Below the pieces are notes generated by a model. The model was not told the DNA's origin. It saw only the letters and a program-made list of their open reading frames with translations, and searched no databases. From Pedobacter montanisoli (lineage in GTDB: Bacteria; Bacteroidota; Bacteroidia; Sphingobacteriales; Sphingobacteriaceae), in assembly GCF_022809115.1 (NCBI RefSeq), contig NZ_JALGBH010000002.1, forward strand, positions 809,543 to 873,542: a stretch of DNA of 64,000 nucleotides. Direction: 5' to 3'. Of this stretch, positions 93 through 54,807 are shown piece by piece. Within the stretch, counting starts at the first letter, position 1, and every line of letters starts with the position of its first letter. A program made the translations under genes and the position numbers.

Positions 93-2405
93 TTATTCTA
101 ATGACTTTTTATTGTAAATAAGATAGCCTATGTGAAATAGTACGCCATGTCTTTTCCGTTCATCATCGTAATAATTGTAGCTTAAACTTATAGGGCCTAA
201 AGGCGATTGGTAAACCAATCCGGTTGTAGCTGCATAATATATTTTTTCGAAAGGCTGCTGATAAGCAACTTCTTGTAAGCCTATTTTAGCAAATGCTTTG
301 TGTGGCATAAATACATAACCTTCTAGGCGCAGATCTAAATTGCGTTTTAAGGTAAATACGTTTTTTAGTCCGACTGATCCATAAGTATGCGCTTTAAAAT
401 TCTCTAAAAAAATAGATCTGCTGTCTTGTAAAGGATAAAAAGTTGGCGCTTGCAATAAAGTAGCATAATAATTATTTGAAAGTTCCTGATTAGAAAGCAC
501 AGCCTCGGCAAATGCGGCAAGGTTATAATTTTTTATTCTTAAGAAATAATTTTCGTAACTCAGTTTAACATTTACCCAGTTTTTATAATGATGCGTTAAA
601 GGACTGGGAACCTGTAAAGGCAAAATGTGCTGAAATATATTACCTGGTGTATAATTTTCTCTACCGTGGTTTACATTAAAACTGGCATAAATATATTTAC
701 CCGCAGTAGCATATTGTTTTCGGTTTAATGAATTTTTTTCAAAAGTTAAGCCTGTATTAAATCCGCTAAAAGAGGTTTTATCCAATATATCACCTACAGC
801 AAAAGTATTATTAGGACTGTAGTAGTTTGAGTTATAGATAAAAGCCGAATTTAAAACCAGTCTGCTGTTCTTGTTTAAGGGAACTCCCAGTTTAAGATCT
901 ATCTTACGATCTGTTTGTTCAATATATACAGGCTTGGGATTTTCGATAAAGATCTGGCTGGTGTTGTAATAATTCCAGTGGTTAAAAGTTATTTCAGAAG
1001 CTAAAAAGATGGGCAATTTACTCGGAAAATCTACACGACCGTTAAGTTGAGCCGCTTCATAAAATCTACCGGAATAGAAATTTGCACCAAAAGTATAGGC
1101 CTTTTTATTGATGTAATTGTATTGAATACCTAAAAATACGTTGCTAATGGGTCTGGTTGAAATATTGCCGCCAAAATCTATCTTAAAGCTTTTTTTAGGC
1201 CGGGCATAGATCTCAAAAATATAACTATCGCGAATATCATCATAAAAGATCTTGGGGTATACGGATTCAAAAGTTTCGTCGGCTACTAATTTATAGTAAC
1301 CACGTTTAATATCATCTAGGTTAAAATTAGGCTGGTCACTTTTAAATAAACGTTCTATATATTTTTTCTGTTGCGAGTTTACGCCATAAACTGCCACATC
1401 GCTAAAAATGAGATCAGATTTACGTTCATTAAATTCAATTCTTTTTTGCAGCAGTTCCTGTGGGTTAACACGTCGTTGAACGTGTTTTTTGATCTGCTCC
1501 ATATTGGCCATGGTAGCTTCGTAACCTTTTTGGATAATCTCTGCTACAGGCACAAAGTTGGTAGAGGAGTAATCGCTGAGATTGGGTTCTATGTATATGC
1601 CTTCTTTTCCTACCAGCGTAGAATCAGATTTTGCCAGAAACATATACATCAATAACCTGTTCATTAAACGATCGTCGTTTTTAGGGTATTCATTATAGGT
1701 TTTAGACGAAACATTTGCGCCGATGATAATATCAGGACTAAATTCTTTCTGCATCACATCGGCAGGGAAATTGTTATAGATACCACCATCAAAATACAGC
1801 TTATCGTTAATTCTGATGGGCCTGTAAATTAGAGGCACGGTCATACTGGCTCTCACCGCATCGGCCAAACTGCCTTTACTCATGGTAATGCTTTTTTGCG
1901 ACAACACATCAGAAACCATACAGCGATAGGGAACAAAAAGCTGGTTAAAGTTGTCTTTAGCAATGGCCGAAGCTTGCGAAAAAAGCTCCAAAAGCGCAAA
2001 ATTTAACGGAATATCATTGATCAGGCTCGATCTAAACGATAATCTTAAACCCGTATCTATATTAAGTTTGGCATTGATGCTTGAAGCATTAGGCGGATTT
2101 TTCTGAAAATAAAAGCTGTAATCGCTGGTATAACGTCCGTTTACCCAATCCTGAAAATCTTTGCTCAGGGCTATTTTTTCAATTTGGCTGGGTGAGTAGC
2201 CAGCCGCATATAAACCACCTACAATGGCTCCCATAGAAGTTCCGGTAATGTAATCTACCGGTATATTGTTTTCTTCCAGTGCTTTTAGCGTGCCAATGTG
2301 AGCAAGTCCTTTTGCACCGCCACCACTAAAAACCAAGCCTACTTTTTGGGCATGACCTATATTTAAGTTGAAGGATAATATTACGAGTACAAACAGGAAC
2401 CGCAT
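93..2405 (-). CDS. Patatin-like phospholipase with C-terminal BamA/TamA-type outer membrane barrel
   Basis: Predicted serine lipid acyl hydrolase fused to an outer membrane barrel. A signal peptide covers residues 1-20 (ending GHAQ). The patatin domain carries the oxyanion loop GGGAKG (28-33), the nucleophile elbow GTSMG (Ser57) and the catalytic Asp in DGG (Asp206), so the Ser-Asp dyad looks intact. Residues of about 330-400 resemble a POTRA segment, and the rest is aromatic-rich beta-strand sequence like bacterial surface antigen D15. The same architecture is known from patatin type V autotransporter-like proteins of the RssA/PlpD type. It stands alone, divergent from the DUF2200 gene. The substrate is not visible from sequence; phospholipid turnover at the cell surface is the family-based guess. 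The 92 bases after its stop hold nothing I can name. Confidence 0.9.
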   Translation of the reverse strand: MRFLFVLVILSFNLNIGHAQKVGLVFSGGGAKGLAHIGTLKALEENNIPVDYITGTSMGAIVGGLYAAGYSPSQIEKIALSKDFQDWVNGRYTSDYSFYFQKNPPNASSINAKLNIDTGLRLSFRSSLINDIPLNFALLELFSQASAIAKDNFNQLFVPYRCMVSDVLSQKSITMSKGSLADAVRASMTVPLIYRPIRINDKLYFDGGIYNNFPADVMQKEFSPDIIIGANVSSKTYNEYPKNDDRLMNRLLMYMFLAKSDSTLVGKEGIYIEPNLSDYSSTNFVPVAEIIQKGYEATMANMEQIKKHVQRRVNPQELLQKRIEFNERKSDLIFSDVAVYGVNSQQKKYIERLFKSDQPNFNLDDIKRGYYKLVADETFESVYPKIFYDDIRDSYIFEIYARPKKSFKIDFGGNISTRPISNVFLGIQYNYINKKAYTFGANFYSGRFYEAAQLNGRVDFPSKLPIFLASEITFNHWNYYNTSQIFIENPKPVYIEQTDRKIDLKLGVPLNKNSRLVLNSAFIYNSNYYSPNNTFAVGDILDKTSFSGFNTGLTFEKNSLNRKQYATAGKYIYASFNVNHGRENYTPGNIFQHILPLQVPSPLTHHYKNWVNVKLSYENYFLRIKNYNLAAFAEAVLSNQELSNNYYATLLQAPTFYPLQDSRSIFLENFKAHTYGSVGLKNVFTLKRNLDLRLEGYVFMPHKAFAKIGLQEVAYQQPFEKIYYAATTGLVYQSPLGPISLSYNYYDDERKRHGVLFHIGYLIYNKKSLE

Positions 2406-52608: not shown

Positions 52609-52633
52609 TTATTCTTTTTATGAGTAATTATGA

Positions 52634-52726
52634 TTTTCCACCCTTAATGACAAAGAGTTTGATCAAATAGTCAGAGACTTATTAAAGGATAATGCTATTG
52701 ATGATTTATTTGTAAAAGCAAAATAA
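52634..52726 (+). pseudogene. Possible remnant reading frame after the 73-aa gene
   Basis: Thirty sense codons bounded by stops, reading FSTLNDKEFDQIVRDLLKDN then AIDDLFVKAK. Protein-like composition, no start codon. Perhaps the 3' end of a lost partner gene. Low certainty. Confidence 0.22.
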
Positions 52727-52844
52727 TTTTAAGATCAAGTTTGTTGCAGAAGCGAGAGAATAGTTAACCGATGATTATTATTAATATAAACTTGTCTGTA
52801 TAAAATTAGTTGGGTTTTCTACTCGTTAAGTGTTTAACTTTTAA

Positions 52845-52885
52845 TTTGATGTTTGATAACAAATTACTAAATTTGTTAGTAATTT
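52845..52885 (+). promoter_or_regulatory. Promoter overlapped by inverted-repeat operator, DUF763-EndoV operon
   Basis: TTTG at 52845-52848, a 19-base spacer and TAAATTTG at 52868-52875 match the Bacteroidota promoter consensus fully. The -7 box lies inside a perfect inverted repeat, AAATTACTAA-ATTTG-TTAGTAATTT (52861-52885), whose last base adjoins the ATG at 52886. A protein bound there would block RNA polymerase and ribosome access. Confidence 0.7.
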
Positions 52886-54100
52886 ATGAAAAGATCAGGC
52901 AGTGCAGATTTACCTTTACACTATGGCCATGTACCCCTATGGTTGGCAGAACGTATGGGCAAATTAGGGAAAGTCATTGTAGAAGAAATACTATCCAATC
53001 AGGGTAAAAGTGCTTTATTATCTAAATTTAGTGATCCTTTTTGGTTTCAGAGTCTAGGAGCTGTAATGGGAATGGACTGGCATTCTTCAGGAATTACAAC
53101 CTCAGTAATGGGTGCTTTAAAAAGAAGTATAAATCCTAATGCTAAAGAATTTGGTATTTTTATTTGCGGTGGTAAAGGCAAACAATCCCGAAATACGCCA
53201 AATGAAGTATTGCGTTTTGCTGAACTTAATGGCTTAGCAGCTCAGGATCTGGTTAGAAGCAGTAAACTGACTGCAAAAGTAGATAATACCGCTATTCAGG
53301 ATGGATTTCAATTGTATCAACATCATTTTATTGTGAGTAATGAAGGTCAGTGGACAGTTATACAACAAGGGATGAGTAACAGTAGCTCTACTGCCCGTCG
53401 TTACCACTGGCACTCCCCCTCTATAAAATCATTCACAGAAGAGCCACACACAAGTATTTATGGAGAAAATCAAGGCAATATCCTCAATCTTACCGATAAG
53501 ATGGCTCAGCCTTTAAAAACTGCCATGATGGAAGTAACAACAGAAAATCCTGATAAAATGTTGTCTGAGATTTCTAAGATCAAGCATTTGGTTATGCCCA
53601 TGCATCATGATGTAAAAGCAAAAGATGTAGATATGAAACGCTTAGGAGCTGTTTTATGGCTGGCACAGGAAAAGAATGTGAACAATTTTGAAGAATTATT
53701 GTTACTTGAAGGCTTAGGGCCAAGAACCTTGCAGTCTTTGGCTTTGGTAAGCGAAGTAATCTACGGACAACCTTCGCAGTTTAAAGATCCTGCCCGTTTT
53801 TCTTTTGCCCATGGTGGAAAAGATGGTCACCCCTTTCCTGTTCCAACTAAGGTTTACGACGAAACGATTGAGACTTTGCAACAGGCCATACAAAAATCGA
53901 AATTGGGACAGAGTGACAAAATACAGGCCATACGATCGCTTTCTAAGGTAACAGCCCGGTTGGCAGAAGATTTTGTGCCTAATGGAAATTTTAACGAGTT
54001 AATTGCCCATGAAAGAGCTAACTCATGGAAATATGGAGGAAGAACAGTGTTTGGTAAAGCTAAAGCACCGCAGAACCAACAATTAGATTTATTTCAATGA
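52886..54100 (+). CDS. DUF763 protein
   Basis: 404 residues of DUF763. The N-terminus MKRSGSADLPLHYGHVPLWL is the family hallmark; other conserved blocks are MGMDWHSSGITTSVMGALKR, FGIFICGGKGKQSRNTPNE, FIVSNEGQWTVIQQGM and YHWHS. A helix-hairpin-helix-like motif LLLLEGLGPRTLQSLALVSE lies at about 271-290, pointing to nucleic-acid contact, followed by RFSFAHGGKDGHPFPVP. No enzyme activity is known. Its stop overlaps the start of the endonuclease V gene (ATGA), so the two proteins are made together, which supports a DNA-repair or RNA-processing role. Confidence 0.88.
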   Translation: MKRSGSADLPLHYGHVPLWLAERMGKLGKVIVEEILSNQGKSALLSKFSDPFWFQSLGAVMGMDWHSSGITTSVMGALKRSINPNAKEFGIFICGGKGKQSRNTPNEVLRFAELNGLAAQDLVRSSKLTAKVDNTAIQDGFQLYQHHFIVSNEGQWTVIQQGMSNSSSTARRYHWHSPSIKSFTEEPHTSIYGENQGNILNLTDKMAQPLKTAMMEVTTENPDKMLSEISKIKHLVMPMHHDVKAKDVDMKRLGAVLWLAQEKNVNNFEELLLLEGLGPRTLQSLALVSEVIYGQPSQFKDPARFSFAHGGKDGHPFPVPTKVYDETIETLQQAIQKSKLGQSDKIQAIRSLSKVTARLAEDFVPNGNFNELIAHERANSWKYGGRTVFGKAKAPQNQQLDLFQ

Positions 54101-54807
54101 TCTGTTATGATAATCTTACATTAGCCGAAGCAACAGCCATACAGAATGAGCTCAAATCAGAATTACGTTTCGATCTGGCAGAAAATCTGGATTTTAAAAC
54201 TGTTGGCGGAGCAGATATTTCTTTTAACAAAGGCAGCAACCAGTTTTTTGCAGCTATTGTGATATTGAACTTTCCGCGTATGACTTTACAAGGTTATGCA
54301 CTGGCTCACGGTATTAGCAATTTTCCTTATATTCCTGGTTTTTTGGGTTTCAGGGAAGTTCCAAGTTTACTAAAAGCTTGGGATATGATCCCCAATAAAC
54401 CTGATGTGCTGATCCTGGATGGGCAAGGTATTTTACACCCCAGAAAAATGGGCATTGCTTCACATTTTGGTGTGCTTACTAAACATTTAACCATGGGTTG
54501 TGCTAAAAAATCACTTTTTGGTAAGTATGAAGAGCCTGATCTTCAAAAATATTCAGATAGTCCTATATATGGGCATCACGAAATTTTGGGCTATGCGCTT
54601 CGTACCAAAGATCGCACTCAACCTGTGTATGTTTCTCCAGGCTATGGTTTAAACGTTTCTCAGTCGTTAAACCTTATCTGCAAATGTATGGGTAAATATC
54701 GTATTCCAGAACCTACGAGAATAGCGCATGAAATTGTAAACCAATTCAGAACAGGTTATTTAAAAGAAGGTTATCATAAAATTCCCCAAAATCCCGAACT
54801 ATTTTAA
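54097..54807 (+). CDS. nfi: Endonuclease V (deoxyinosine 3' endonuclease)
   Basis: 236 residues. The active-site acids appear in VGGADISF (Asp40) and ILDGQGILHPRKMGIASHFG (Asp108); FPYIPGFLGFREVPSLLKAW holds the conserved wedge segment PYIPGFLxFRE. EndoV cuts one base 3' of deoxyinosine in DNA or inosine in RNA. The gene is translationally coupled to the DUF763 gene. The late block is longer at the C-terminus (RIPEPTRIAHEIVNQFRTGY) as usual for bacterial forms. Confidence 0.92.
   Translation: MICYDNLTLAEATAIQNELKSELRFDLAENLDFKTVGGADISFNKGSNQFFAAIVILNFPRMTLQGYALAHGISNFPYIPGFLGFREVPSLLKAWDMIPNKPDVLILDGQGILHPRKMGIASHFGVLTKHLTMGCAKKSLFGKYEEPDLQKYSDSPIYGHHEILGYALRTKDRTQPVYVSPGYGLNVSQSLNLICKCMGKYRIPEPTRIAHEIVNQFRTGYLKEGYHKIPQNPELF

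Follow-up and report, generated by a model that had tools for sequence, protein, structure and literature searches.

A predicted LexA box precedes DUF763 in Pedobacter and its relatives and, in one subclade, a DUF763-endonuclease V gene pair

Introduction

In Bacteroidetes, repressors of the XRE-S24 type (COG2932) act as LexA and bind the motif CTAA-N5-TTAG, which the main text of Sanchez-Osuna et al. 2021 (PMC8565304) reports for Sphingobacteriaceae, Chitinophagaceae and Hymenobacteraceae; its regulon was verified in Bacteroidetes other than the one studied here by EMSA and by RT-qPCR with mitomycin C. That main text mentions neither DUF763 nor endonuclease V (EndoV), although DUF763 may already be listed in the supplementary tables of the same paper. 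The corresponding motif of alphaproteobacterial LexA is given as GTTC-N7-GTTC (PMC3323433). DUF763 itself (PF05559, COG1415) has no recorded function, as a first-pass annotation of the DNA analysed here had said, and the one paper found to name it is a domain survey (PMC554113), which, like our own searches, places the family in archaea, some Proteobacteria and Bacteroidota.

Here we describe a DUF763-EndoV gene pair in a 64,000-nucleotide stretch of the Pedobacter montanisoli genome (the window). Its promoter holds an inverted repeat that is very probably a LexA box; we take SOS control of DUF763 to be ancestral and EndoV to have been appended in one Pedobacter subclade.

Results

DUF763 and EndoV form an overlapping gene pair

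The DUF763 gene occupies positions 52886-54100 of the forward strand and encodes a protein of 404 aa with a full-length match to PF05559 (E 1.3e-136; 455 bits against a curated cut-off of 35.5). The EndoV gene follows on the same strand at 54097-54807 (236 aa; PF04493, E 4.8e-65). As had been claimed, the two overlap by ATGA, at 54097-54100, through which EndoV is predicted to be translationally coupled to DUF763. The nearest solved relative of the EndoV protein is Nfi of T. maritima (2w35/4b20), with which residues 9-220 align and the motifs GADISF, FPYIPG, FRE and DGQG..HPR are shared; the protein thus combines the PF04493 match with the active-site and wedge motifs of its family. In E. coli, nfi is not known to belong to the SOS genes, whereas the EndoV gene of the window stands behind a predicted LexA box. 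Upstream of the promoter, window positions 52620-52727 resemble what is left of a small, disrupted coding gene.

It is conceivable that DUF763 and EndoV are obligate partners on inosine-containing nucleic acid and that the operon exists for this joint role. Translational coupling in the clade of the window is in keeping with this, as are independent close linkages in Flavobacterium (two loci, looser, with a helicase-like gene between) and in Chitinophaga (one locus, also looser), and a weak positive association among Pedobacter genomes (DUF763 in 59, EndoV in 27, both in 23; odds ratio 2.9, one-sided p 0.06). However, 36 of the 59 DUF763-bearing Pedobacter genomes are without EndoV, the two genes adjoin in only 5, unlinked Pedobacter EndoV genes carry no box within 200 nt upstream, and in a phylum-wide sample of 396 genomes (DUF763 in 28, EndoV matches with E below 1e-40 in 50, both in 6) co-occurrence is not significant (one-sided Fisher p 0.13). 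The co-occurrence across genomes that the first-pass annotation had looked to is therefore significant at neither level, and we consider obligate partnership unlikely. In Pedobacter, immediate adjacency is found in a single subclade, which has full support in the DUF763 tree and in which 6 of 9 members show it. Close linkage nevertheless arose about three times in 80 loci, where by a rough estimate well under one case would be expected; a functional affinity of DUF763 and EndoV is thus possible.

The inverted repeat contains the Bacteroidetes LexA motif

A perfect inverted repeat, AAATTACTAA-N5-TTAGTAATTT (in full, AAATTACTAA-ATTTG-TTAGTAATTT), lies at 52861-52885 and directly abuts the ATG at 52886. 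A putative Bacteroidetes-type promoter, TTTG-N19-TAAATTTG (-33 and -7 elements), spans 52845-52875 of the forward strand, and its -7 box (52868-52875) falls within the repeat, just as first described; the promoter match alone is weak, with 5 matches to the pattern in the window against 3.6 expected. For the repeat at up to 3 mismatches, the window holds 1 match against 0.08 expected. The perfect 25-bp repeat has one copy in the 3.29 Mb genome, and a second, at 3 mismatches, sits inside a SusC-like coding gene. We therefore dropped the idea of a dedicated regulon defined by the full repeat. The 10-bp arms, although perfect in the window, are conserved in relatives in their inner part only. Orthologues do not keep the outer flanks and share the unit T(A/G)CTAA-NTTTG-TTAG(T/C)A. 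Within it, CTAA-ATTTG-TTAG at 52867-52879, the sole copy of CTAA-N5-TTAG in the window, overlaps the -7 box and matches the EMSA-defined motif of PMC8565304, which makes it a predicted SOS operator. The box nearly touches the start codon (52865-52886 in the window; L158-L197), with TTAGC-ATG in Mucilaginibacter, and the mRNA is therefore expected to have little or no leader. The conserved DUF763 start is TTG in one group of Pedobacter.

The same genome holds a candidate repressor for this box. The second-best genome site for the core TACTAAWTTTGTTAGTA (G000:C2:1021534) is directly upstream of an XRE-S24 gene (G000:C2:1021579-1022352), the 258-aa product of which has HTH_3 and Peptidase_S24 domains; its Ala-Gly, its Ser in GDSM and its Lys in VVYKRA stand in S24-like contexts, as would be expected for a self-cleaving repressor. 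Orthologues are found in 77 of 81 Pedobacter genomes, and in all 30 copies inspected a perfect TACTAA-N5-TTAGTA is located about 45 nt upstream of the gene, accompanied by a weaker copy near -69 and another near -112. At one locus, a perfect box (L062 1501-1517) has as its neighbour a second repressor-like gene with an S24 domain, which is divergently oriented (798-1445, minus strand).

CTAA-N5-TTAG is not enriched as such in the genome (65 sites against 110 for the reversed control). The surroundings of most of 50 listed sites out of these 65 were read. Among the matches listed, intergenic boxes just before start codons include those of recA, a umuD-like S24 gene, two radical-SAM genes (one splB-like, one COG4277-like) and, at C1:513, a gene for a DnaQ/GIY-YIG exonuclease. 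Pfam confirmed the RecA, S24, radical-SAM and exonuclease domains of these genes, while their COG-level names come from a reading against the gene list of PMC8565304. Because these boxed genes are listed there, we take the box to be the SOS box of this genome. The search for further operator copies has yielded a predicted regulon, in which a CTAA-N5-TTAG promoter box, a cognate XRE-S24 repressor with its own box and boxes at core SOS genes occur together. It resembles the regulon described in the main text of PMC8565304 in its box, in its type of repressor with a multi-site promoter of its own, and in its companion genes (recA, umuD, splB, COG4277 and DnaQ/GIY-YIG exonuclease).

These sites bear on the proposal that the operator is a dedicated or autoregulatory one, to which DUF763 (by way of its HhH-like motif) or some other regulator binds and which exists only there. 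The exact-spacer box does occur about once per Pedobacter genome, before DUF763: in 81 genomes the pattern TRCTAAWTTTGTTAGYA has 51 matches, 49 of them at DUF763, and its reverse three or four. But the dyad with a free spacer also precedes the lexA-like gene, recA, the umuD-like and splB-like genes and others, the -7 box accounts for the fixed TTTG of the spacer, and a box persists in one Pedobacter genome that has no DUF763 (TGCTAAATTTGTTAGCA, L061 1501-1517), where the gene downstream is CoiA-nuclease-like (a PF06054 match at E 0.0019 that does not reach the cut-off). The operator is thus not a dedicated one as first proposed, and binding by a regulator confined to this locus is very improbable.

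The box is conserved at DUF763

At 43 of 80 Bacteroidota loci the box precedes DUF763 at no more than about 45 nt from the start codon, as against 2 of 644 other ORFs at the same loci. In this set it is present at 17 of 19 Pedobacter and 15 of 15 Mucilaginibacter loci, and boxed DUF763 genes also occur in Pararcticibacter, Hufsiella, Arcticibacter, Niastella, Deminuibacter, Filimonas and Flavitalea; when the exact pattern is taken together with two further variants, at least 51 of the 59 DUF763-bearing Pedobacter genomes have it. Since it is kept at the same place before DUF763 and is rare at neighbouring ORFs, the box by all indications belongs to DUF763 and not to EndoV. Its core is conserved upstream of orthologues whether or not EndoV follows, which bears out the view that the inverted repeat is a real operator. 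At the EndoV-linked locus of L152 and L272 a second box, CTAATATTTTTAG, lies upstream of the first, at about -60 from the DUF763 start.

Over 77 unique loci, CTAA, TTTG and TTAG are 97-100% conserved, the flanks about 40%, and the first spacer base is free. An early impression of arm covariation did not hold, the outer positions varying independently over these loci. It could be argued that such conservation reflects a core promoter and no repressor binding, the nearly invariant TTTG of the spacer belonging to the -7 element. The invariance of the arms, however, goes further than the TAnnTTTG consensus requires, SOS genes have the same arms around different spacers, other ORFs seldom have them, and this explanation has little chance of being right. 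Very improbable, too, is an RNA hairpin controlling translation of a short leader, for although a 10-bp stem is possible (-6.5 kcal/mol, z -1.9), TAnnTTTG inside the repeat would put the transcription start within or after the right arm and leave the left arm untranscribed, and the outer dyad positions are without covariation (A/T 30, A/C 22, G/T 14, G/C 11).

No box was found before DUF763 in Flavobacterium, Dyadobacter and most Chitinophaga-type loci, nor in at least 7 of the 59 Pedobacter genomes, where most of the genes inspected sit behind a HAD-phosphatase gene, identified by reading the upstream sequence. Thus, SOS control is not essential to DUF763. Upstream of Flavobacterium DUF763, the Flavobacterium LexA box GGA-N5-TCC was not found, bar one likely chance match. 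Two genomes have altered DUF763 genes: one (G004; L003 2814-3425) carries, behind the intact gene, a second copy that is truncated and interrupted by an internal stop, and in another (G007; L022/L023) the reading frame is split in two.

An unrelated LexA box precedes some alphaproteobacterial DUF763 genes

The alphaproteobacterial sample consists of plasmid records only and is not random. In it, GTTC-N7-GTTC in either orientation precedes DUF763 in Bosea (at -26), S. fredii, NGR234, S. americanum and S. sojae, and two Ensifer strains keep the GAAC repeats with a changed spacer. Across the 86 kb of the first 16 loci there are 10 exact boxes, of which DUF763 promoters account for 6. An exact box before DUF763 is absent in S. 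meliloti, S. medicae, R. tropici, R. etli and R. leguminosarum. Together, these results suggest convergent SOS control of DUF763 in Sinorhizobium/Ensifer and Bosea. As in Pedobacter, DUF763 would be placed under a damage-responsive repressor; the N-terminal domain of that repressor and its box are, however, unrelated to those of Bacteroidetes, the annotated regions show no EndoV beside DUF763, and many rhizobia are without the box. The neighbours of DUF763 in Bosea (L149 4304-7215) are genes for a 3-methyladenine DNA glycosylase, two Ku proteins and LigD.

Features of the DUF763 protein

From archaea to Bacteroidota, about 70 positions of DUF763 are invariant, among them D64, H66, D139, H146, R171, R172, H174, H241, K312 and D313, which suggests an enzyme. 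The HhH-like motif of the first-pass annotation, near residues 268-293, is plausible but weak: PF00633 matches the window fragment at E 0.1 and, at best, a haloarchaeal homologue fragment at E 0.001, below the curated cut-off. Such a motif would suit DNA contact. A PDB sequence search with DUF763 gave no credible homologue, and an AlphaFold2 model of middling quality (pLDDT 66.8, pTM 0.71) matched no PDB fold below E 0.1. PADLOC profiles for anti-phage defence gave no match, and a phage or viral origin was set aside, as no DUF763 appeared in phage records or viral contigs.

Discussion

To judge by its sequence, the operator of the DUF763-EndoV pair is nothing out of the ordinary: it belongs with the known SOS boxes of Bacteroidetes. 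What would be new is its predicted control of DUF763 across two Bacteroidota families, apparently again in rhizobia, and, in this clade, of EndoV as well. Repressor binding, induction and biochemical activity at DUF763-EndoV are what we infer from the conserved box and its companions. In the undamaged cell, the XRE-S24 LexA would sit on CTAA-N5-TTAG over the -7 element and block transcription of DUF763 and, by translational coupling, expression of EndoV along with it. DNA damage would lead to self-cleavage of the repressor, and the pair would then be expressed together with recA, the umuD-like and splB-like genes and the other SOS genes. DUF763 would be the ancestral SOS-controlled gene, and EndoV would have joined it in one Pedobacter subclade, inheriting its control.

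The suggestion that the operator implies induction by a signal fits an SOS box well. A joint role for the two proteins in handling inosine-containing or damaged nucleic acid had also been proposed. Because the operator is an SOS/LexA box, the damaged-nucleic-acid part of this is favoured, whereas a role with EndoV on inosine is unproven. The reading we favour for DUF763 is that of a protein recurrently inducible by DNA damage, which probably acts on DNA, most likely on damaged DNA or stalled-repair intermediates. More tentatively, it may constitute a new family for DNA repair or damage processing over which unrelated repressors in two phyla independently gained SOS control, with EndoV as an occasional partner.

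DUF763 is ancient, highly conserved and common to archaea and bacteria. Its predicted membership of the SOS response in Sphingobacteriaceae, in some Chitinophagaceae and, it seems, in rhizobia as well would give the family a concrete pathway, and the window would illustrate how an endonuclease V gene can come under predicted SOS control by being added to an operon that already had it.
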